The translations under genes were made by a program, and so were the position numbers. The notes under the pieces are model-generated. The model was not told where the DNA came from. It ran no database searches and was given only the letters and a program-made list of their open reading frames with translations. Below are positions 2,468 through 18,241 of a stretch of DNA of 21,036 nucleotides, in pieces (positions within the stretch are counted from its first letter, which is position 1; every line of letters begins with the position of its first letter). This DNA comes from a virus. Location: positions 1-21,036 of IMG/VR virus record IMGVR_UViG_3300031673_005317. The stretch is one strand, 5' to 3'.

Positions 2468-3115
2468 ATGCCAAAATTAATTGATTTAACCGGAAGAAAA
2501 TTCGGACGGCTTGTTGTTATAAAACAAGTTGGAAAAGATAAGTGGGGAAGTTATAAATGGTTATGTCTATGTGATTGTGGTAATAAAACAATAATTATTA
2601 GCTATAGTCTTATAAAAAATAAAACTAAAAGCTGCGGTTGTTTGCAGAAACAAATTGTATCGAGTATCAATATGACACACGGCCATAGTAGAAGAGGTAA
2701 ATTGTCTAAGACCTATACAGTATGGGCATCTATGATTCAAAGATGCACTAACCCTAATTCTCAAGATTATTACCTTTATGGGGAGAGAGGAATTAAAGTT
2801 GGTAAAAAATGGATAAAATTCTCAAATTTCTTAGAAGACATGGGCGAGGTGCGAAAAGGTTGCCAGATTGATAGAATAAACAATAATAAAAATTATTGCA
2901 AATCAAATTGTCGTTGGACTACTCCTAAAATAAATAGTCGAAATAGACGAAATAATCGCCTAGAAACATATAATGGGAAAACACAATGTTTGGCCGCCTG
3001 GGCAGAAGAATATAACATTCCCTACCTTAGATTGTGGAAAAGATGTCAGAAATACGGCTGGCCAATAGGGAAAGCCTTAACAACCCCGGTGAACAAAAGG
3101 AGAAAAGTGAGATGA
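2468..3115 (+). CDS. free-standing homing-endonuclease-like protein
   Basis: A 215-residue protein with the layout of phage homing-endonuclease-like proteins. An N-terminal zinc-ribbon-like segment has CLCDCG near residues 33-38 and SCGC near 56-59. A central YTVWASMIQRC block follows, then YGERGIKV, then a nuclease-like core with QIDRINNNKNY and NCRWTT. These motifs recur in stand-alone phage HNH/AP2-type genes that spread by cutting DNA near their own insertion site. The catalytic residues cannot be assigned by eye. It sits tightly between the Ycf46-like ATPase (8 bp) and the DUF3150 gene (ATGA overlap). Its DNA is visibly more AT-rich than both neighbours, with AAT/AAA-heavy codons, consistent with an inserted mobile gene that landed without breaking the operon. 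Confidence 0.75.
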   Translation: MPKLIDLTGRKFGRLVVIKQVGKDKWGSYKWLCLCDCGNKTIIISYSLIKNKTKSCGCLQKQIVSSINMTHGHSRRGKLSKTYTVWASMIQRCTNPNSQDYYLYGERGIKVGKKWIKFSNFLEDMGEVRKGCQIDRINNNKNYCKSNCRWTTPKINSRNRRNNRLETYNGKTQCLAAWAEEYNIPYLRLWKRCQKYGWPIGKALTTPVNKRRKVR

Positions 3116-7683: not shown

Positions 7684-7938
7684 ATGAAAAAAACAATCTT
7701 AGAAATAGACGAAGCAGGTGACGTGCATTGTTTATACACTGATGACATTGATCTCTTTGCTGTCGGGCGAGTAACAAATATTCGTAAAGCAAGCAACGTA
7801 GAGTTTTCTGAACCGAAACAATGTTGGCAGGTCACTTCTCTGGATGGTGAAGTTTTATACGAGCACCCAAATAGGGAGGTGGCGATAGAATGGGAAATAG
7901 AAAACTTTTCTCCAAATGGACCTTATTACCATAAATAG
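7684..7938 (+). CDS. small hypothetical protein with a DUF2997-like opening
   Basis: An 84-residue acidic protein. It begins KKTILEIDEAGDV, much like the opening of the DUF2997 protein 60 bp downstream. It then diverges into DIDLFAVGRV, a RKASNVEFSEPKQCWQV strand block and EVAIEWEIENF. ATG 7684 lies just past the previous stop with AAGGATG upstream; an ATG at 7675 is too close to that site. The function is unknown. Confidence 0.65.
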   Translation: MKKTILEIDEAGDVHCLYTDDIDLFAVGRVTNIRKASNVEFSEPKQCWQVTSLDGEVLYEHPNREVAIEWEIENFSPNGPYYHK

Positions 7939-7998
7939 ATAAGAAAAAGAATTTAGTTAGTGAGTACAGCTAGGAACGGAGTGAATAAGGAGATCAGA

Positions 7999-8205
7999 AT
8001 GGTACAACAGAAAAAAGTAATAATTGACATCGACGAAAAAGGCAATTGTTTAGTGGAGGGCAAAAATTTTATAGGCCCCGAGTGTTCTCATTTTATAGAA
8101 GAGATAGAAGAATCCCTTGGAGAACGTATCTCTCAAACAGACAAGCCCGAGTATTGTCAAAGAGCGATAGTTAGAGATAGAAATATGCAGAGAGGTGGAA
8201 GATAA
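7999..8205 (+). CDS. DUF2997-family protein
   Basis: A 68-residue protein with the DUF2997 pattern: QKKVIIDIDEKGNCLVEG, then a Gly-Pro-Glu-Cys segment, a helix leading to ESLGERISQTDKPEY, and a short basic tail. ATG 7999 has AAGGAG at 7987-7992. A GTG at 7960 would add 13 residues but lacks support. DUF2997 proteins often occur near DUF1257 genes as far as I recall, and a DUF1257 homologue is present about 3 kb upstream with a Ycf46-like ATPase beyond it. No biochemical role is established. The conserved Cys suggests a link to a metal or iron-sulfur function, but that is a guess. Confidence 0.75.
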   Translation: MVQQKKVIIDIDEKGNCLVEGKNFIGPECSHFIEEIEESLGERISQTDKPEYCQRAIVRDRNMQRGGR

Positions 8206-8393
8206 TGAGTAGTCTACTCAATAGATCAGCAACGAAAAAATTTATACTTATACGATTCTCTGAATTACGATCTGGACCACCAATGACCCGTGTATCCAAA
8301 AAATATCTGAACGACCTAGAAGCGTGGCTAAAGAATAAGATAGTCAACGATATTGAATCACACCCGAGTATCGGGACGACCTTCAAACCGTAG
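8205..8393 (+). CDS. small hypothetical protein
   Basis: A 62-residue basic protein with no recognised family. Its ATG overlaps the TAA of the DUF2997 gene by one base, and GGTGGAAG lies just upstream, so it is likely co-translated with it. The central segment (SKKYLNDLEAWLKNKI) is an amphipathic helix. Confidence 0.55.
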   Translation: MSSLLNRSATKKFILIRFSELRSGPPMTRVSKKYLNDLEAWLKNKIVNDIESHPSIGTTFKP

Positions 8394-8417
8394 GAAGATT
8401 AGTCAAAGGAGAAACAA

Positions 8418-8732
8418 ATGTGGGATTCATTGGTTATTCGTAAGTTCGAAAAACTTCAATTAAAAGCAACGAGTGTTGGTTTGTTTCTACATGTAAATGA
8501 TGTTACTGCTTACCATGACGGTACAAAACATCCAGATCGTACCATTAGCTACCAATTTATAATTGGTCACCAAAAATATGGTTCAAAATCAAAAGCACAC
8601 GATACTATCAAAGACCACCATTCAGCATGTACCTCTAATCTATGTCCAGTGGCCGCGTTTAACACATTAGAGGAAGTTAAGGCATTTATCATAGGTTTCT
8701 GTATAGCCTCAAAGAAAGCAAATCCATTCTAG
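8418..8732 (+). CDS. hypothetical protein
   Basis: A 104-residue protein with alternating strands and helices. It carries several His residues and a CTSNLC segment near residue 75, possibly a metal site. The C-terminal helix begins TLEEVKAFI. AAGGAG precedes the ATG. I do not recognise the family. Confidence 0.6.
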   Translation: MWDSLVIRKFEKLQLKATSVGLFLHVNDVTAYHDGTKHPDRTISYQFIIGHQKYGSKSKAHDTIKDHHSACTSNLCPVAAFNTLEEVKAFIIGFCIASKKANPF

Positions 8733-8744
8733 GAGAAAATTGAG

Positions 8745-8960
8745 ATGTCAAACAGAACATATTCAAAATGCCCGATGGGACACAGGATGTCATTTGATCC
8801 AGGATCATGCACCCTAATAGAGTGGTGGTGTCCTAGTTGCCAGAAAAGCTATAAATTCACACCGAAAGAACGGAAAATGGTTCTTGTAGCATATAGGTAT
8901 GGCATAGAACGTGGCAAAAGGGAAATTATCGAATCAGTCAAGGACACACTTCATTTATAG
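8745..8960 (+). CDS. small zinc-ribbon protein
   Basis: A 71-residue protein with CPMGH near residues 9-13 and CPSC near 30-33, the two halves of a zinc ribbon, followed by a basic helix (RYGIERGKREIIESV). AGGAG precedes the ATG. The function is unknown. A short GGCG-TAG-CGCC hairpin and a possible promoter begin at its stop codon, so it may end a transcription unit. Confidence 0.65.
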   Translation: MSNRTYSKCPMGHRMSFDPGSCTLIEWWCPSCQKSYKFTPKERKMVLVAYRYGIERGKREIIESVKDTLHL

Positions 8961-8970
8961 GCGTAGCGCC

Positions 8971-8998
8971 TTGGCGATGTGTATGTTTTTAGTATACT
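8971..8998 (+). promoter_or_regulatory. possible sigma-70-type promoter
   Basis: TTGGCG at 8971-8976 (four of six matches to TTGACA) and TATACT at 8993-8998 (five of six to TATAAT) are separated by 16 bp. The element sits in one of the few gaps between genes, 35 bp before the DUF262 start. A 4-bp GC stem (8960-8970) and a T5 run at 8986-8990 lie in the same stretch and might act as a weak terminator for the upstream genes. Evidence is motif match and position only. Confidence 0.4.
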
Positions 8999-9032
8999 AG
9001 TTTGCTGTGAATGTTTTTGGTGGAGTGTATTT

Positions 9033-9569
9033 ATGAAATTCGCCAACATACCACAAATGAGTCTTGCCAACTATTCTGTTCATCATTTGCTTCACATGTT
9101 ACCTAGAACCATCCGTAGATATCAAGAAGAAACACTTTGTCCTCTAAATATCAATCCAGACTTTCAAAGAGCCCATGTATGGACACCAGAACAAAAAATA
9201 CGTTATATGGAATTTATCCTTCAGGGTGGAACCTCAGCCAAAGATTTCTATTTTAATTGCTGTGGATGGCAAAAATCTTATGATGGGCCTTTTGAACTCG
9301 TCGATGGGAAACAAAGACTTGATGCTTGCTTAGGTTTTATGTCTGGCACAGTTCCCGTCTTTGGCGGTTTATACATAACAGATTTTACCGACAAGCCATT
9401 TGATGTTCATCTTTCGTTCCATATCAATAATCTAAAAACGCGGACAGAAGTTCTTCGGTGGTATTTGGATATAAATTCTGGTGGAGTTGTTCATACTAAT
9501 GACGAGCTAGATAAAGTCAGGGAACTTTTAGAAAAAGAAAGAAAAAATAATGGAGAAAAAGAAAACTGA
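9033..9569 (+). CDS. DUF262 (GmrSD N-terminal/ParB-like) protein
   Basis: A 178-residue protein with the DUF262 core. It reads NPDFQRAHVW and TPEQKIRYMEFILQGG, then a strand region ending in LVDGKQRLDACLGF. These motifs form the ParB/sulfiredoxin-like nucleotide-binding fold found at the N-terminus of GmrSD-type modification-dependent restriction enzymes. The HNH nuclease half of GmrSD is absent. The protein ends in a charged helix, and stand-alone DUF262 genes are seen in large phages. I chose ATG 9033 because GGTGGAG lies about eight bases upstream; a GTG at 8979 overlaps the possible promoter. NTP binding is likely. Whether it acts in defence, counter-defence or regulation is unknown. Confidence 0.75.
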   Translation: MKFANIPQMSLANYSVHHLLHMLPRTIRRYQEETLCPLNINPDFQRAHVWTPEQKIRYMEFILQGGTSAKDFYFNCCGWQKSYDGPFELVDGKQRLDACLGFMSGTVPVFGGLYITDFTDKPFDVHLSFHINNLKTRTEVLRWYLDINSGGVVHTNDELDKVRELLEKERKNNGEKEN

Positions 9570-9732
9570 AAAACAACGTATTCACAGAATAGTCGTGGGG
9601 GCATTACGAGAAACTATTAGAATACACGGACAAATAAATAGACTACTTATAGGAAGCGCAGCAAAACGAATTACTGGTACACTATTAGCTAAGGAGAAAA
9701 AAAATGCAAGTATTCATAATGATGCAAAGTGA
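9550..9732 (+). CDS. small basic hypothetical protein
   Basis: A 60-residue, strongly basic protein overlapping the DUF262 gene by 20 bp and the next gene by 29 bp. The sequence is helical and Lys/Arg-rich with no known domain. The upstream region is purine-rich without a clear AGGAG. It could be a real overlapping gene or a by-product of A-rich sequence. Confidence 0.4.
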   Translation: MEKKKTEKQRIHRIVVGALRETIRIHGQINRLLIGSAAKRITGTLLAKEKKNASIHNDAK

Positions 9733-9925
9733 AGGAAAAGGACGAACCAGAGTTAGAGAAGTTTATTTTGATGAACAAAAAGCTAAAGATTTTATAGGAA
9801 CACCACAGCCAGAAACTATAAAATGTAAATGCTGTGGCCAACAAAAGAACAATCCAGAATATTATGACGATGCAACTGAAACTTGGAAAAAGAAACTATT
9901 TATAATAGAACGCACTGTGGAATAA
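9704..9925 (+). CDS. small hypothetical protein with a CKCC metal-like motif
   Basis: A 73-residue protein with an N-terminal strand/helix block (REVYFDEQKAKDFI) and a CKCCGQQ element near residue 43. AAGGAG sits at the right distance before the ATG, which makes this the best-supported start in the region. The function is unknown. Confidence 0.6.
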   Translation: MQVFIMMQSEGKGRTRVREVYFDEQKAKDFIGTPQPETIKCKCCGQQKNNPEYYDDATETWKKKLFIIERTVE

Positions 9926-9935
9926 GGAAAAAATA

Positions 9936-10190
9936 ATGAACGATTTGATTCCGAGGACTCTTAGATGTCGCGTTAACGAAACCACCATAGAAGTTTGTCA
10001 CGGAGAAATACCAGACATATTCAGACAGTCATATTATGACCCAGTCACAGAGTTTGAGTTGCCAGACGCAAAAGAGACAGGTACAGACGAGGATTTCAGA
10101 GATTGGCTAGATAGTTATCGTCGCGCAAATCTGTCTGGTGTTAACGCTTGGTATGAAGTAATGTTGTTACATAAATCTTGTTGTTCATAG
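9936..10190 (+). CDS. small hypothetical protein
   Basis: An 84-residue acidic protein with no recognised family. The sequence moves from a short strand block to an acidic helix (DEDFRDWLDSYRRA) and ends in adjacent Cys residues. AAGGA precedes the ATG. Confidence 0.6.
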   Translation: MNDLIPRTLRCRVNETTIEVCHGEIPDIFRQSYYDPVTEFELPDAKETGTDEDFRDWLDSYRRANLSGVNAWYEVMLLHKSCCS

Positions 10191-12182: not shown

Positions 12183-13634
12183 ATGATTGAAACTGAAAAC
12201 AAACAGAAAGTCACCACCATTTTCCCCGAACACGGGGTAATAACAGACAAAAGCCTTGGTTCCTTAAATGAACAATTCCGTAAATTACCCTCATATGTCG
12301 GTGATTTTCTTATCGCAGAAATGGTTGACCCCAAAGACCCGACACCAGGACTTGAACGCATTGGCCAGTTACTCAAAAATCATCTCATGGATTCTAATCA
12401 AAAAGAATTTATAAAAAGTTGCATTAGGGAACGGGGAGAATATACCCTTATTGGTCGTATCAGATGTCGATATGACGAAGGTAAAGACATTTATTGGGTC
12501 GATGTTAATTGTCTAGGTAATCAATATGTTCGTATAGATAATTATTTGATTGCCGAGTATGGAGAGACTCTATTGACGGCAGGCGCCTGGGGGGTGTTCA
12601 AGATAGTGTACGATGAATCTTTCATCATGAGGAAAAGATTATATCCATTTTTAGTAACAGAATTCAAACCAATGCAGATTACTGGTATAGATTTGGATAC
12701 CTGGATTAGTCGTCGGTCTCAATTTACTGACAATGAATGGCTTAACCTGATGATTAATAGTGTAGGATTTGATCCAACCTATCTTTCGGAAGAAGAGAAG
12801 TGGTTGTATATGGTGAGGATGGTTCCGTTTATTGAGCGAAATGTCAATATGGTCGAACTCGGTGCCACGATGACAGGAAAAACATTCGCTTATCAATCTT
12901 TGAGTAGTTATGGATTTGTAATTTCTGGATCACAGACTACCGTTGCATCTTTATTTTATGATAAGTTGAGACGCCAATTAGGTTTGATAGGTTATCGAGA
13001 TGTTGTTGCTTTCGATGAATTTACCAATAGTCGTGGCGGGAATAAGTGGTCTGGGCAAGGCGACTTGATAGATTTACTGAAAGATTTTATGAATTCTGGA
13101 AAATTTGGCAGAGGTACGGCTGAATTTGCGTCCGATTGTTCTATCACTTTTATGGGTAATATTAGCTGCGATAGGGACAAAAGAGAGGTTGCTGTAAGAT
13201 ATAGGAATCTATTTTCTCCACTTCCTCAAGCAGTTAGTCAAGATCGAGCGTTCCTTGACCGGATACATGGGTTTATACCAGGATGGCGCATTGGACCAAT
13301 CAAAGAATCTAATCTCGCAAAGGGTGTAGGGTTTACGGCTGATTATATGTCAGAAATAATGCACAGAATGAGGGATTGTAATTATGCCAACGTCATACTG
13401 CAAAATGTAGATTTCGGTAAAATGGGTCAAAGAGATCAGCGATCATTGATGCGCATTGGATCGGGATTATTAAAACTTGTGTTTCCACATAGAACACCGA
13501 CAACAATAGAATCAAATGAGTTAAAAACTGTTTTGGACATTGCTGTTGATTTAAGGGGTAGGGTATTGGATCAATTGGCTATAATTTGTCCTGGTGAATT
13601 CAAGGGTGTTAAGTTGGAGTATAAAATCAAATGA
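12183..13634 (+). CDS. BrxL-like AAA+ ATPase without Lon protease domain
   Basis: A 483-residue protein matching the ATPase part of BrxL, the Lon-like protein of BREX phage-defence systems. The family-like order is clear: an N-terminal segment with LPSYVGDFLIAEM, KSCIRERGEYTLIGR, an EYGETLLTAGAWG block, then ELGATMTGKT with Walker A at residues 227-234, ISGSQTTVASLFY, Walker B VVAFDE with Asp278-Glu279, a sensor-like FMGNIS, and AFLDRIHGFIPGW. It closes soon after SGLLKLVFPH and an Arg/Val helix. The C-terminal Lon-type protease half of the longer BrxL (about 680 residues) is absent. No brxA, brxB, brxC, pglX or pglZ gene lies in the window. Family knowledge places BrxL as a ring-forming DNA-binding AAA+ protein. 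Here a helicase/translocase or anti-BREX role is possible. Confidence 0.8.
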   Translation: MIETENKQKVTTIFPEHGVITDKSLGSLNEQFRKLPSYVGDFLIAEMVDPKDPTPGLERIGQLLKNHLMDSNQKEFIKSCIRERGEYTLIGRIRCRYDEGKDIYWVDVNCLGNQYVRIDNYLIAEYGETLLTAGAWGVFKIVYDESFIMRKRLYPFLVTEFKPMQITGIDLDTWISRRSQFTDNEWLNLMINSVGFDPTYLSEEEKWLYMVRMVPFIERNVNMVELGATMTGKTFAYQSLSSYGFVISGSQTTVASLFYDKLRRQLGLIGYRDVVAFDEFTNSRGGNKWSGQGDLIDLLKDFMNSGKFGRGTAEFASDCSITFMGNISCDRDKREVAVRYRNLFSPLPQAVSQDRAFLDRIHGFIPGWRIGPIKESNLAKGVGFTADYMSEIMHRMRDCNYANVILQNVDFGKMGQRDQRSLMRIGSGLLKLVFPHRTPTTIESNELKTVLDIAVDLRGRVLDQLAIICPGEFKGVKLEYKIK

Positions 13635-14019: not shown

Positions 14020-14376
14020 ATGAAAATAAAACAACCAAACAATAAGTACATATGTGAAACAATTTATGGAAACGTGGTAGAATTCATTTTTGAAGAAAAA
14101 AACGAACCAGACTATATCACGAAATATTGGACTGTACAATTTACCAAAACCCCAAAGGGTAGGAAAAAAATAATAGCAGAAATTGTAGAAGAATTTGATC
14201 CAGACGACAAGAGAGTTATTCATATTTCTTTATATTTTAATGATAGTGTTACCAATAAAGAAAGGACGAAAATCAAAAGATATTTAACAGATGGATTAAA
14301 TGGTCTAAGCAAAGTAATGGTAAACGCAATAGAATTACATCCATGTATTGATGGTTTTGTAATTGATTTTGTTTAA
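14020..14376 (+). CDS. hypothetical protein
   Basis: A 118-residue Lys/Glu-rich protein with strand segments (YWTVQFTK and VIHISLYF) and a C-terminal helix. No family is recognised. AGGAG precedes the ATG. It ends 10 bp before the thyX start, and its stop overlaps the thyX ribosome binding site. Confidence 0.6.
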   Translation: MKIKQPNNKYICETIYGNVVEFIFEEKNEPDYITKYWTVQFTKTPKGRKKIIAEIVEEFDPDDKRVIHISLYFNDSVTNKERTKIKRYLTDGLNGLSKVMVNAIELHPCIDGFVIDFV

Positions 14377-14386
14377 GGAGAAAATA

Positions 14387-16159
14387 GTGAATTTTGTGAA
14401 TGAACCTAAAGTGGCACTTATAGGAAAGCCAGTTTTTGAAATCGATGGAGTCATGAGATTCCTTGATGAACATGGATATTCTTGGCCAGAACTTGAAGAA
14501 AAATTACAACAAATGATATCACTTGGGGATGACGATGCAGAATGGCTCGTGGAAACAGCGGGTCGTATGTGTTACCAAAGTTGGCCAAAACGTGGCGAGA
14601 CAATGAAGGGACGATCACACGAAGACCACATCAAACATCTGATCGAGGTGAAGCATGGCGCATGTATAGAGCACGCCAATTTCACTTTTGCAATATGGGG
14701 TATAAGTCGCTCCTTGTCCCACGAACTAGTTAGGCATCGTATAGCTTCTTATTGCCTAGCTGGTGATACGGTTATTCATAGTGGAAGTAGAATACATGGC
14801 AGGTTCAAGGGGGTGCTTAAGAAATGGACTATAAAACAATTGTTTGACTGGTCCCTAGATAAGAAAAGAAAAGGAAGATTAAAACGCATTTTGATTAGGT
14901 GTTTTGATAATGAAAAAATAATTCCTATAAATATTAAGTCTGTACAACAATCTGGATTGAAACAACTGGTTAAAGTTACTTTGGCTGACGGAAAATGGAT
15001 TAGATGTTCCAAGGATCATCGCTTTTTAACCAATATTAATGGTAAAAATATTTGGAAATCCATAAAAGAACTTTCTGTCGGAGAATTATTGGCTATTAAC
15101 GGGAAACCTATATATAAAGATATGGGGTGGCTTAGACGTAAATATCATGATGAAAATTTATCACAGAAAGAAATGGCTAAATTGGCAGGAGTTAGTCACC
15201 ATACTATTAGATCATGGATAAGGAAGTATAAATTGCAAAAGAGTTTTGGAAGTTGGAGCATAGGAAAAACACCGTGGAATAAAAATAAAACATATTGCGC
15301 CGGTTGGCATCATTCGCTGGAAACTCGTGAAACTCTAAGCCAAAAGAAAATGGGGAGCGGAAATCCACGATGGTTGGGAGATGCAGCCAGCCAACAAGCT
15401 GGACGCTTTCGGGCACAAAAACTTTATGATATAAAGCCGTGTGAAACATGCGGGAGCGAAGAAGATATATGCCGTCATCATATAGATGAGAATACTCACA
15501 ATAATGATGCCAATAATATTGAATTTTTATGCAATAGTTGTCATACAACGAAACACGCCGCCATGATGGGAAAATTCACACATACAATTGATTGGCAACC
15601 CATTCGGTCTATAGTGCCAGACGGAAAAGAGATGACATACGATATAGAAGTTGATCACGATTGTCATAATTTCGTTGCTAACGGGTTTATTACACACAAT
15701 TCACAATTATCACAGCGTTACGTAGATTCGTCCAGTGTAGCTTTCATAGTGCCACCCGCTATCCAGGAGTTAGCTAAAATAGACCAGAATGCTTATCAAA
15801 AGTGGATTGATCATTGCAAACAGTCAAGGTCGCTTTACGAAGAACTGACAAGTAAACTATCAGATATGTATGTGGATATTGAAAGTAAGTTGGAAAGGCG
15901 AAAAAAGGCGCGTCAGGCTGCAAGGTCTGTGCTTCCTAATGCTACTGAAACCAAGATAGTTGTCACTATGAACGCTAGGGCTATTCGTCATCTGATTGAG
16001 CTTAGAGCCAACCCCGCTGCGGATGTCGAGATTAGAAAATTAGCTGTCAAGATATGCCGCATCCTACAAGATAAAGCCCCACTTTTTGCCCATGGACTAG
16101 GTATAGTCAAGCTTGAGGATGGAACAGAAGGAGTCGAATCAAAATACCCCAGGGTATAA
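14387..16159 (+). CDS. thyX: flavin-dependent thymidylate synthase (ThyX), intein-split
   Basis: A 590-residue precursor made of 122 N-extein residues, a 316-residue intein and 152 C-extein residues. The spliced ThyX would be 274 residues. ThyX motifs are clear: EHANFTFAI, the start of the signature at ELVRHRIASY just before the intein, SQLSQRYVD just after it, and MNARAIRHLIELRANPAADVEIR near the C-terminus in two parts. ThyX makes dTMP from dUMP using FAD, NADPH and methylenetetrahydrofolate, so the phage would not rely on a host ThyA. I chose GTG 14387 because AAGGAG lies six bases upstream; upstream TTG/ATT codons lack it. The full signature RHRxxSx7S forms only after splicing, so activity depends on it. 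Confidence 0.93.
   Translation: MNFVNEPKVALIGKPVFEIDGVMRFLDEHGYSWPELEEKLQQMISLGDDDAEWLVETAGRMCYQSWPKRGETMKGRSHEDHIKHLIEVKHGACIEHANFTFAIWGISRSLSHELVRHRIASYCLAGDTVIHSGSRIHGRFKGVLKKWTIKQLFDWSLDKKRKGRLKRILIRCFDNEKIIPINIKSVQQSGLKQLVKVTLADGKWIRCSKDHRFLTNINGKNIWKSIKELSVGELLAINGKPIYKDMGWLRRKYHDENLSQKEMAKLAGVSHHTIRSWIRKYKLQKSFGSWSIGKTPWNKNKTYCAGWHHSLETRETLSQKKMGSGNPRWLGDAASQQAGRFRAQKLYDIKPCETCGSEEDICRHHIDENTHNNDANNIEFLCNSCHTTKHAAMMGKFTHTIDWQPIRSIVPDGKEMTYDIEVDHDCHNFVANGFITHNSQLSQRYVDSSSVAFIVPPAIQELAKIDQNAYQKWIDHCKQSRSLYEELTSKLSDMYVDIESKLERRKKARQAARSVLPNATETKIVVTMNARAIRHLIELRANPAADVEIRKLAVKICRILQDKAPLFAHGLGIVKLEDGTEGVESKYPRV
14753..15700 (+). mobile_element. ThyX intein with HNH homing endonuclease
   Basis: The insert is in frame and 316 codons long. 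It begins CLAGDTVI with Cys1 and has the block-B His in SKDHRFLT. It ends YDIEVDHDCHNFVANGF then ITHN, followed by Ser+1, so all splice residues (Cys1, His, penultimate His, last Asn, Ser+1) look intact. The centre holds a helix-turn-helix (SQKEMAKLAGVSHHTIRSWI, intein about 138-163), a NUMOD3-like basic stretch near 175-200, and an HNH domain near 230-267 with CETCG, CRHHIDENTHNN and CNSCH. It interrupts the Tyr-Ser step of the RHRxxSx7 FAD/dUMP signature. Confidence 0.9.
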
Positions 16160-16189: not shown

Positions 16190-17080
16190 ATGAGTTATGG
16201 GTATAATAGCATGGATGGATTTGATACATACATCACAACAGAATTGGGCTTATCACAGGAAACGCTTTCGGCGTATAAAAGAGATGTTCAGGAATTTCTT
16301 GATTTTATTGGGACGCAAACCTTGACGGCCCAACTTATAGAAATATTTGTAAATCATCTGAAACAACGTGGTCTAAAATCTACAACGGTACGAAGAAAAT
16401 GCATGTCGGTTCGGTGCCTGTGTCATCATCTCATAGGAATGGGTCGTCTAGACTCCAACATACTTGGTATGATTAATTCAATCCGTATAGATAGGAGAAC
16501 GTCAGATGCCTTGGATTCTAAAGATGTGGATACTCTCATTTCTGCTGTGGGGAAACGTACGCCCTTATTGCGAACAGCTAACATTCGCCGCGATGTCGCT
16601 ACTATACTAACACTGTATCATAGTGGACTTAGGGCGTCTGAGTTATGTGGTCTAAATTTGGATGACATAGATTTCTCTCGACGAACAATACGAGTGAGGG
16701 GCAAGGGCAATTGTGATCGAATAGTACCAACTACTCCCAGATGTGCCCAAGCGATTATGGAATATATAGATTTGGAACGCAAATCCGAAACCAATGCTAT
16801 TTTCGTCACAACCAATGGTCAAAGAATAACCCGTAGGGCTGTCAGCGACATGCTCACGTCTCTTTCTCGTCGGGCGGGTATAAAACACACTACCGCTCAT
16901 ATGCTTCGTAGAAGCTGCGCCACGTCTTTGATGAACAGCGGAATGGATTTGGAATTAATCCAAGTTTTATTGGGTCATCAAAATTTATCAACTACTCAAA
17001 CATATTTAGTAACTACCCTGGATCGACTCAAAAACATTCACCAATGTTGCCACCCTTTAGGAGCAAAGTATGAAGCTTAA
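16190..17080 (+). CDS. tyrosine recombinase (XerC/D-type)
   Basis: A 296-residue integrase-family recombinase. The N-terminal SAM-like core-binding domain spans about residues 8-95. The catalytic domain has every expected residue: Arg148 in GLRASEL, Lys172 in the RGKGN hairpin, His237 and Arg240 in HMLRR, His263 in LLGHQNL and the nucleophile Tyr272. The length and hairpin suit XerC/XerD. The upstream ribosome binding site is weak; ATG 16211 is an alternative start. Possible roles are integration, dimer resolution or DNA-end processing. No att site is visible, and the choice cannot be made from the window. It overlaps the ClpP-like gene by 11 bp. Confidence 0.92.
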   Translation: MSYGYNSMDGFDTYITTELGLSQETLSAYKRDVQEFLDFIGTQTLTAQLIEIFVNHLKQRGLKSTTVRRKCMSVRCLCHHLIGMGRLDSNILGMINSIRIDRRTSDALDSKDVDTLISAVGKRTPLLRTANIRRDVATILTLYHSGLRASELCGLNLDDIDFSRRTIRVRGKGNCDRIVPTTPRCAQAIMEYIDLERKSETNAIFVTTNGQRITRRAVSDMLTSLSRRAGIKHTTAHMLRRSCATSLMNSGMDLELIQVLLGHQNLSTTQTYLVTTLDRLKNIHQCCHPLGAKYEA

Positions 17081-17723
17081 TGGGAAGAAAGTACAGGGTA
17101 GTTACAAACATCATGAGGAACATGAAGAAGATACTGGGATAGCAATTCCGATACAACTGGACGAATTAGTAGACGAATTTCTACTACAAACACGTCGTTT
17201 GTTGGTCGTAGGCGAGATAAATGAAATATCATCCACCTATATCTGTAGTTATTTGCAATTGTTCTCATTAACAAAAGACCCCGTATATATGTATATCAAT
17301 AGTCCTGGGGGGTGTCTATCATCTGGGTATGCCATTATAGATCAAATGTTAGCTTGTCGGTACCCCATTTACACTATTATTCGTGGACAAGGCCATTCAA
17401 TGGGCGCTATGATCGCTGCGTTTGGCACAAAGGGACATAGGTATGCAACGCCGAATTCATCAATTATGCTCCATTCTGTTATCATTCAGAATCCACCAGA
17501 TTCTATTGATCGTCATACCGCGATGATGAATTATCTTATAGAAGACAGTAACAGAAAAGTTGCCAATCTAGCAAAAAGATTAAAGTTAACGACAAAACAA
17601 TTAACAGAATTAATGAATACAACTAAATGGATGTCTCCTAAGCAAGCGATTAAAATTGGTTTAATTGATGGAATATGGACACCCAGATTGGAACGATCTG
17701 TTTCTAGGAGTATTAAGAAATGA
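17070..17723 (+). CDS. ClpP-family protease with altered catalytic triad
   Basis: A 217-residue ClpP-fold protein. The nucleophile Ser110 is in GHSMGAM and His135 in IMLHSV, 25 residues apart as in ClpP. YINSPGG, the hallmark oxyanion segment, is present, as are a C-terminal MSPKQAIKIGLIDGI block and an N-terminal VVGEI strand. The usual third residue, the Asp four residues before the conserved Ser in the block RDxFMSA, appears to be Thr185 (NTTKWMS). The serine-protease core may therefore work weakly or need another residue. AGGAG precedes the ATG, which lies inside the recombinase gene. It would need a partner unfoldase, host ClpX/ClpA or a phage one. Phage ClpP-like proteins are also used as head-maturation proteases, but no capsid gene is near. 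Confidence 0.85.
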   Translation: MKLNGKKVQGSYKHHEEHEEDTGIAIPIQLDELVDEFLLQTRRLLVVGEINEISSTYICSYLQLFSLTKDPVYMYINSPGGCLSSGYAIIDQMLACRYPIYTIIRGQGHSMGAMIAAFGTKGHRYATPNSSIMLHSVIIQNPPDSIDRHTAMMNYLIEDSNRKVANLAKRLKLTTKQLTELMNTTKWMSPKQAIKIGLIDGIWTPRLERSVSRSIKK

Positions 17724-18241
17724 TGCGACAACAACGCCGTATAACTAAAGCGTATTTTGATATGGCTCGTCATCAATATACACCATTAATACATAAATTG
17801 GCATATCGTGTAGGTGTCCATTCAACACAAGTAGAAGAACTGAAAATTAGGGCTTTGGAAGAATTATTAAAGTGCATGATTTGTTATAATCGTAGTGGTT
17901 CGTTTATGACATTTTTCCATGGTAGACTATTCGATATTTTTAGGCACATAAGAGACGCGGAATTTAGGGCGAAAAGAATACCAACCAAACCGTCTGATTC
18001 AATGACGCATGTTGCTGGACCTTGTCATGATATGGATTCTCCCATAATGGTACGAGAGTGTCTTGAGTGTCTTGATGAGAGCGAAAAACAAGTTATCGTA
18101 AAGCTTTTCTTTAATGAAAAAACTGTAAGGCAGATATCTGGTGATTTAAGCATCGTCCCTTCTACTGTATGCAGAATCAAAACAAGGGCTATCAGAAAAA
18201 TGCAACGAAAATGTAAGCTGGAGTTAAACTATGGAAAATGA
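17720..18241 (+). CDS. sigma-70-like RNA polymerase sigma factor
   Basis: A 173-residue protein with sigma-factor architecture. Residues about 20-85 have region-2-like helices (VEELKIRALEELLKCM and FFHGRLFDIFRHIRDAE). After a short linker, residues about 115-165 form region 4 with CLECLDESEKQVIVKLF, RQISGDLSIVPSTVCRIK and a recognition helix. It would steer host RNA polymerase to phage promoters. The size is nearer to ECF or SPO1-type phage sigma factors than to RpoD. Its ATG overlaps the ClpP stop (ATGA), and its stop overlaps the next gene by 11 bp, so the four genes from the recombinase on look like one translational unit. Confidence 0.82.
   Translation: MMRQQRRITKAYFDMARHQYTPLIHKLAYRVGVHSTQVEELKIRALEELLKCMICYNRSGSFMTFFHGRLFDIFRHIRDAEFRAKRIPTKPSDSMTHVAGPCHDMDSPIMVRECLECLDESEKQVIVKLFFNEKTVRQISGDLSIVPSTVCRIKTRAIRKMQRKCKLELNYGK

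Follow-up and report, generated by a model that had tools for sequence, protein, structure and literature searches.

A BREX-free short BrxL ATPase in the core genome of a lineage of large uncultured phages

What would a phage do with an ATPase of the BrxL family? The question is raised by the 21,036-base virus record analysed here, whose whole length we call the window, and in which an open frame with an ATG start (12183-13634, plus strand) encodes a 483-amino-acid protein that Pfam, PADLOC, NCBIfam, an alignment to solved BrxL and a predicted structure all place among the short BrxL-family AAA+ ATPases. A sequence-only reading of this stretch had proposed two roles for it, either a decoy or dominant-negative subunit directed against host BREX or an MCM-like DNA ATPase acting in replication. 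We consider it more likely that this protein handles the phage's own DNA than that it fights or mimics the defence of the host, and we give a probability of about 0.5 to the reading that it belongs to the core replication/recombination machinery of the phage, as a DNA ATPase that acts alongside the DnaB encoded by the phage itself.

The domain content of the protein is that of the short form. Pfam places a BrxL_N domain at residues 18-143 (PF20442, 12234-12611, plus strand, 80.4 bits against a cut-off of 28.2, E 1.5e-22) and a BrxL_ATPase domain at residues 156-477 (PF13337, 12648-13613, plus strand, 339 bits, E 2.5e-101), the latter over a span that a second profile search reproduced. No domain follows them, no further family is matched at E up to 1, and the C-terminal Lon-like or HKD nuclease domain of long BrxL was not found in the phage protein. 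All five PADLOC matches are to BrxL models. When the long and short BrxL profiles are compared, as the sequence-only reading had proposed, the short model TIGR02688 is matched from position 3 to position 447 of its 449, with 423.5 bits where 329.3 are required, and the score for the long profile TIGR02653, 351.7 bits, is under its cut-off of 628.25. The best solved relatives, BrxL 8EMC and 8EMH, align over query residues 3-480, and the alignment to the 679-residue solved BrxL ends at its residue 470, with the Lon-like C-terminal half missing.

The conserved motifs are all in place, namely the Walker A GATMTGKT (12861-12884, residues 227-234), the Walker B VVAFDE (13002-13019, residues 274-279) and DRIHGFIPGW (13257-13286, residues 359-368), all on the plus strand. 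Residues K233, T234, D278, E279, N326 (which we take to be the sensor 1 asparagine), D359 and R360 are identical in 27/27 aligned rows (26 phage and one archaeal), and W368 is invariant in these rows as well. In the alignment to solved BrxL, the phage E279 falls on the essential E280, whose replacement in E280Q abolishes restriction according to the available text of PMC10164562. Because TIGR02688 is spanned end to end, TIGR02653 stays under its cut-off and solved BrxL is aligned over residues 3-480, the protein is a complete short-type BrxL and, judging by its residues, apparently a catalytically intact one; the end-to-end match to the short model rules out a truncated long BrxL. The family assignment and the motif set given by the sequence-only reading are thus borne out. 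That reading was also right that the protein ends before the Lon half, but the short form is recognised as complete in itself and represents no unusual loss: the half is missing as well from Type-4 BREX BrxL and from most archaeal BrxL sampled. Its guess that short forms might already be known proved correct, since they appear in TIGR02688, in the proteins of two loci described below (L043 and L044) and in archaeal frames.

The fold leads to the same family. An AlphaFold2 model built from 27 alignment rows (26 phage, one archaeal) has a pLDDT of 87.4 and a pTM of 0.87. In VIA-align, solved BrxL comes first, at Z 43.7 and an rmsd of 4.3 over 463 residues; MCM subunits come next, with a Z of about 18 for some 350 residues within 66-464 of the model, and Foldseek agrees. 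The protein thus has the OB plus AAA+ arrangement of the MCM replicative helicases, a likeness of fold that alone shows no function, but it differs from them: Pfam gives no match to MCM at E up to 1, and the identity is about 8-15%.

No BREX partner accompanies the gene in the records searched. These were 29, the window and 28 related phage contigs, including contigs of 160-181 kb, and they may be fragments; PglZ, BrxC and an Eco57I-type (PglX-type) methylase were each found in 0/29 of them. The phage BrxL is an orphan, and what had been noted for the window alone extends to its 28 relatives.

The family is not confined to this record. Successive scans of viral contigs yielded 8, 28 and 35 loci, which combine into 34 related IMG/VR contigs that carry a member of the phage family (40-81% identity) and one further locus, L177; six contigs came from the later scan and lie outside the BREX-gene search, the alignments and the tree. 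A further profile scan gave no new contig among the matches listed. L177 (a 34% match) was left out of the phage count as a BREX-like locus beside phage tail genes. Its 712-aa BrxL (7875-10013) has a strong Lon_C match (176.7 bits) and, by eye, retains the Lon-type serine and lysine motif; published BrxL reportedly lacks the Lon catalytic pair.

Is the gene a stable part of these genomes? An independent marker, a protein taken by eye for the tail-tube protein, was found in 17 contigs. BrxL is present in 10 of them, which are 10/10 of those of at least 119 kb, and the seven without it are fragments of 22-78 kb; as BrxL and the tail-tube gene lie about 87 kb apart in the contig G004, fragments are expected to miss BrxL. 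Ranked by identity among reciprocal ortholog pairs, BrxL comes 6th of 120 between G004 and G005 (contigs of 166-168 kb), 34th of 64 between G004 and G008 and 30th of 61 between G005 and G008, so that its conservation is middling towards G008, the most distant well-covered relative. Nei-Gojobori dN/dS is 0.029-0.110 in five of the six pairs that have dS under 2.2 among 12 sequences, and 0.223 in the sixth (dS 2.1); saturation is clearly absent only for the pair L008/L009 (0.058, dS 0.81). Among the 27 loci read, L065 is the only one with a stop close to the beginning of its match. The phage BrxL is under strong purifying selection and is a core gene of a lineage of large uncultured phages, not a stray. 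The phage setting, in which the sequence-only reading saw the novelty, is therefore real, with 34 related contigs and every marker contig of at least 119 kb carrying the gene.

We then come to the relationship with host BrxL, for which that reading had also suggested a tree. The tree (IQ-TREE, midpoint root) holds 56 proteins, 24 of them phage rows. Three loci were kept out of both alignments and tree, L004 (whose BrxL has the place, size and identity of that of L002), L065 (early stop) and L050 (distances equal to those of L049), and L051 and L052 were kept out of the tree. All 24 phage rows lie on one side of a single branch (100/100), as a clade of their own apart from the sampled hosts, and no sampled host BREX group includes any of them. 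Their nearest neighbours are Type-1 BREX BrxL (95/92, under the midpoint root only), and the Type-4 rows and archaeal short forms sit elsewhere; long branches and odd composition in some rows, several phage rows among them, leave the deeper order unsure. The cellular side is thinly sampled, with plasmid records, three phage-collection records and one archaeal phylum, and a profile scan of genome contigs gave just two distant loci. The best plasmid-borne host proteins are about 33-36% identical to the phage protein.

Compared with Type-1 BREX BrxL (8EMC, 8EMH), its nearest sampled group, the phage protein shares the fold over residues 1-483 and the Walker B glutamate, but it is 31-33% identical, has no BREX partners and is missing the roughly 200-residue ring-joining C-terminal domain, which in solved BrxL pairs two rings (available text of PMC10164562). 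It resembles Type-4 BREX BrxL (TIGR02688) in length, in the order of BrxL_N and BrxL_ATPase and in having no C-terminal Lon or nuclease domain; however, it is 26-29% identical to it, and the Type-4 gene adjoins BrxC and PglZ, neither of which the phage has. This arrangement is that of L043 and L044, where short BrxL of 474 and 503 aa stand behind BrxC-like and PglZ-like genes, named by eye. Together with L045, these loci are filed as phages (MT835963, MT835511 and an Acinetobacter phage contig), and they were considered as further phage BrxL and rejected, as we read them as cellular BREX loci; none of the six non-rudiviral phage-database matches (including H2, H3 and H4) was counted as phage.

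Short BrxL is also found outside BREX in archaea. In a sample of 300 genomes from one phylum, TIGR02688 matches 25, of which 22 above the cut-off, and the frames above the cut-off measure 466-507 aa, with one exception of 690 aa. PglZ and DUF499 were checked in 21 of the 25 genomes (G067, G171, G184 and G190, which have split or partial matches, were left out). PglZ is matched in three of the 21, and of these only the genome that encodes the 690-aa protein has it beside BrxL. DUF499 was tried as the usual archaeal partner and rejected: it occurs in 8/21 genomes, beside BrxL in none among the matches listed. Two long ORFs that adjoin BrxL, in L067 and in L135, resemble DUF499 on inspection by eye, which Pfam did not confirm. 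Among 20 archaeal neighbourhoods, ten have a related ORF of 1219-1279 aa immediately upstream of BrxL (in the one scanned, Pfam recognises an Eco57I-type methylase) and two have broken or partial homologues of it; the rest comprise five solitary genes in a similar chromosomal setting, one long form and two others (L135, L138). The ten loci with the upstream ORF, L126-L134 and L136, suggest a two-gene methylase-BrxL system. In L140-L144, the five with a solitary short BrxL, the gene stands beside others taken by eye for transporter-like ones and no BREX gene is visible nearby; these BrxL form one clade (100/100). Since short BrxL is found in several settings, missing BREX partners are not strange in themselves.

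The genes that surround BrxL in the phages are conserved. In the window, it is followed on the plus strand by an intein-interrupted ThyX thymidylate synthase (14363-16159, Pfam Thy1 and Intein_splicing) and then by a block, conserved too, of an Xer-like tyrosine recombinase (16190-17080, Phage_integrase, 140.9 bits), a ClpP-like protease (17070-17723, CLP_protease, 111.7 bits) and a sigma-70 region 4 protein (17720-18241, Sigma70_r4, 33 bits). In 27/28 loci, BrxL is followed on its strand by ThyX, in some of them directly, and in 23/28 by an RNR-like gene, several loci ending before the position of the latter. These 28 loci leave out L004 and keep L050, and they are not all independent, as L049/L050 and L052/L058 look like near-copies; RNR, RecA and DnaE were named in them by eye, without a family search. 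Split ThyX matches also occur in L003, L007, L059 and L065, while in other relatives the match is in one piece. DnaB, above the cut-off in 6/9 records including the four longest of those nine, is encoded by the phages too, as are a DnaG-like (Toprim) primase and two PD-(D/E)XK nucleases. In G004, these genes share the strand and block of BrxL, DnaB at about 18 kb from it and the nucleases at about 11 and 21 kb. A role as sole replicative helicase is ruled out by the DnaB present in six of the nine records.

Two other genes of the window can be mentioned here. The 215-aa ORF at 2468-3115 is HNH-like by eye, without a Pfam match; its relatives lie directly upstream of BrxL in 5/28 loci (L002, L003, L005, L007 and L059) and it is 9.7 kb from BrxL in the window, so it looks mobile. 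At 8979-9569, a 196-aa protein conserved in some relatives has a GmrSD_N (DUF262-type) domain (40.5 bits).

A parallel for a virus-encoded BrxL-type ATPase comes from archaeal viruses. Three rudiviral ORFs annotated as 'protease' (from ARV1, SIRV4 and SMRV1; 435-443 aa) all match Pfam BrxL_ATPase above the cut-off (44.9-53.9 bits against 25), and rudiviral ORFs match the phage BrxL profile at 97.3% (E 2.5e-11). As they carry a BrxL-type ATPase domain by Pfam, the 'protease' label (L046, L094, L095) is probably wrong. The gene that directly follows these ORFs bears the annotation of a CRISPR-associated RecB/Cas4-like nuclease. Among viral structures, the top match of the phage model is nameless, and the second and third are proteins of SIRV9 and Acidianus filamentous virus 2 (AFV2), of similar fold (TM about 0.6). 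The rudivirus/lipothrixvirus ATPase (ARV1 ORF443, SIRV4 ORF8, AFV2 ORF425) thus resembles the phage BrxL in being virus-encoded and of 425-443 aa, but it belongs to archaeal viruses of another realm, is 13-15% identical over the fold and adjoins the Cas4-like nuclease, which the phage BrxL does not have next door. From operon position, we take SIRV2 gp18, presumably an annealing ATPase, to be the likely counterpart of the three rudiviral ORFs tested, and a 2015 study by Guo et al. reportedly names ssDNA binding, annealing and nuclease activities in its title. In their available text, PMC5537682 suggests a replication role for SIRV2 gp17 and gp18, and PMC7826561 terms the gp17-gp18-gp19 operon highly conserved.

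From solved BrxL, MCM and this rudiviral homologue in its operon with a Cas4-like nuclease, we infer ring assembly, DNA translocation or annealing and a role in replication for the phage protein. Its OB-like N-terminal DNA-binding region and MCM-type AAA+ ATPase would probably come together in a ring on the DNA of the phage itself and would spend ATP on travelling along this DNA, remodelling it or annealing it, complementing DnaB and not replacing it. Because the phages also encode DnaB, a Toprim primase and two PD-(D/E)XK nucleases, it would be an accessory core DNA ATPase, acting in origin remodelling, fork restart or annealing, and not the main helicase. In favour of this replication role, BrxL is encoded in one co-oriented block with ThyX and, further on, with DnaB, the DnaG-like primase and the two nucleases. 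Against it, DnaB and the primase leave no replication job obviously vacant, no replication gene proper directly adjoins BrxL, and the nucleases are unlinked to it, unlike in rudiviruses. The helicase activity of solved BrxL was sought but not conclusively shown, according to the available text of PMC10164562.

Could the protein instead be turned against BREX? A phage BrxL that joins the rings of host BrxL, or occupies BrxC or PglZ, and so blocks restriction would agree with a family and fold that are those of host BrxL and with the lack of BREX partners of its own, and a protein missing the ring-pairing C-terminal domain (PMC10164562, available text) could cap host rings. On this idea, the gene should be patchily distributed, change fast and stand close to host BrxL, and none of these is seen: it is core and slow-evolving, under purifying selection, and its clade stands apart from all sampled hosts, at about 33-36% identity to the best plasmid-borne ones. 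The ATPase residues are conserved as well, which a poison subunit need not keep. The decoy proposed by the sequence-only reading is therefore disfavoured and seems to us quite improbable, and its second idea, the MCM-like DNA ATPase in replication, is the likelier one in view of the core status, the fold and the conserved ATPase residues. That the gene was recently captured from a host BREX locus and is functionless in the phage is scarcely credible, even for a family whose other known members come mainly from BREX and related loci, given the 34 related contigs forming one deep clade, the dN/dS of 0.03-0.11 in close pairs and the single early stop among 27 loci.

A stand-alone BrxL might also serve as a phage-borne exclusion factor that blocks the replication of phages or plasmids competing within one cell, self being told by another route. 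BrxL is required for phage restriction in Acinetobacter BREX (PMC10164562, available text), and the archaeal two-gene loci of short BrxL and Eco57I-type methylase look like defence; but this methylase is found in 0/29 phage records, hence no known self-mark, and nucleotide-metabolism neighbours and core status would be unusual for an exclusion gene, so that we hold this role to be unlikely. A similarly low weight goes to DNA handling outside replication, in nucleoid remodelling, genome partition, late transcription or packaging. The sigma-like protein, the Xer-like recombinase and ClpP among the neighbours would suit it, as would a DnaB already encoded, but BrxL is not in the structural block of G004, about 87 kb away at the tail-tube gene, and the rudiviral counterpart has been assigned to replication in print (PMC5537682, available text).

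The accessory role on the phage's own DNA is thus the reading that we retain. Short BrxL itself was already known, and the new part is its phage-core, BREX-free occurrence; full-text literature searches, which covered titles and the beginnings of abstracts and had most subscription papers outside their scope, returned no description of a phage-core BrxL. One practical consequence is that automated defence annotation could label these phages BREX-positive. A stand-alone, conserved phage BrxL without BREX partners also offers a simpler protein for testing BrxL activity, and it connects the family with a viral operon for which ssDNA binding, annealing and nuclease action have been published. The BREX papers, in the text available, leave it unsettled what BrxL does to DNA that enters the cell: the fold is MCM-like and no helicase activity is shown. 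We tentatively consider, as a possibility that is still rather speculative, that the BrxL-type ATPases form a broader class of motors with which viruses replicate or anneal DNA, core here and in rudiviruses, and that BREX took its restriction effector from the same stock. If this is true, BrxL would block phages by loading onto replication structures, as its viral counterpart does.
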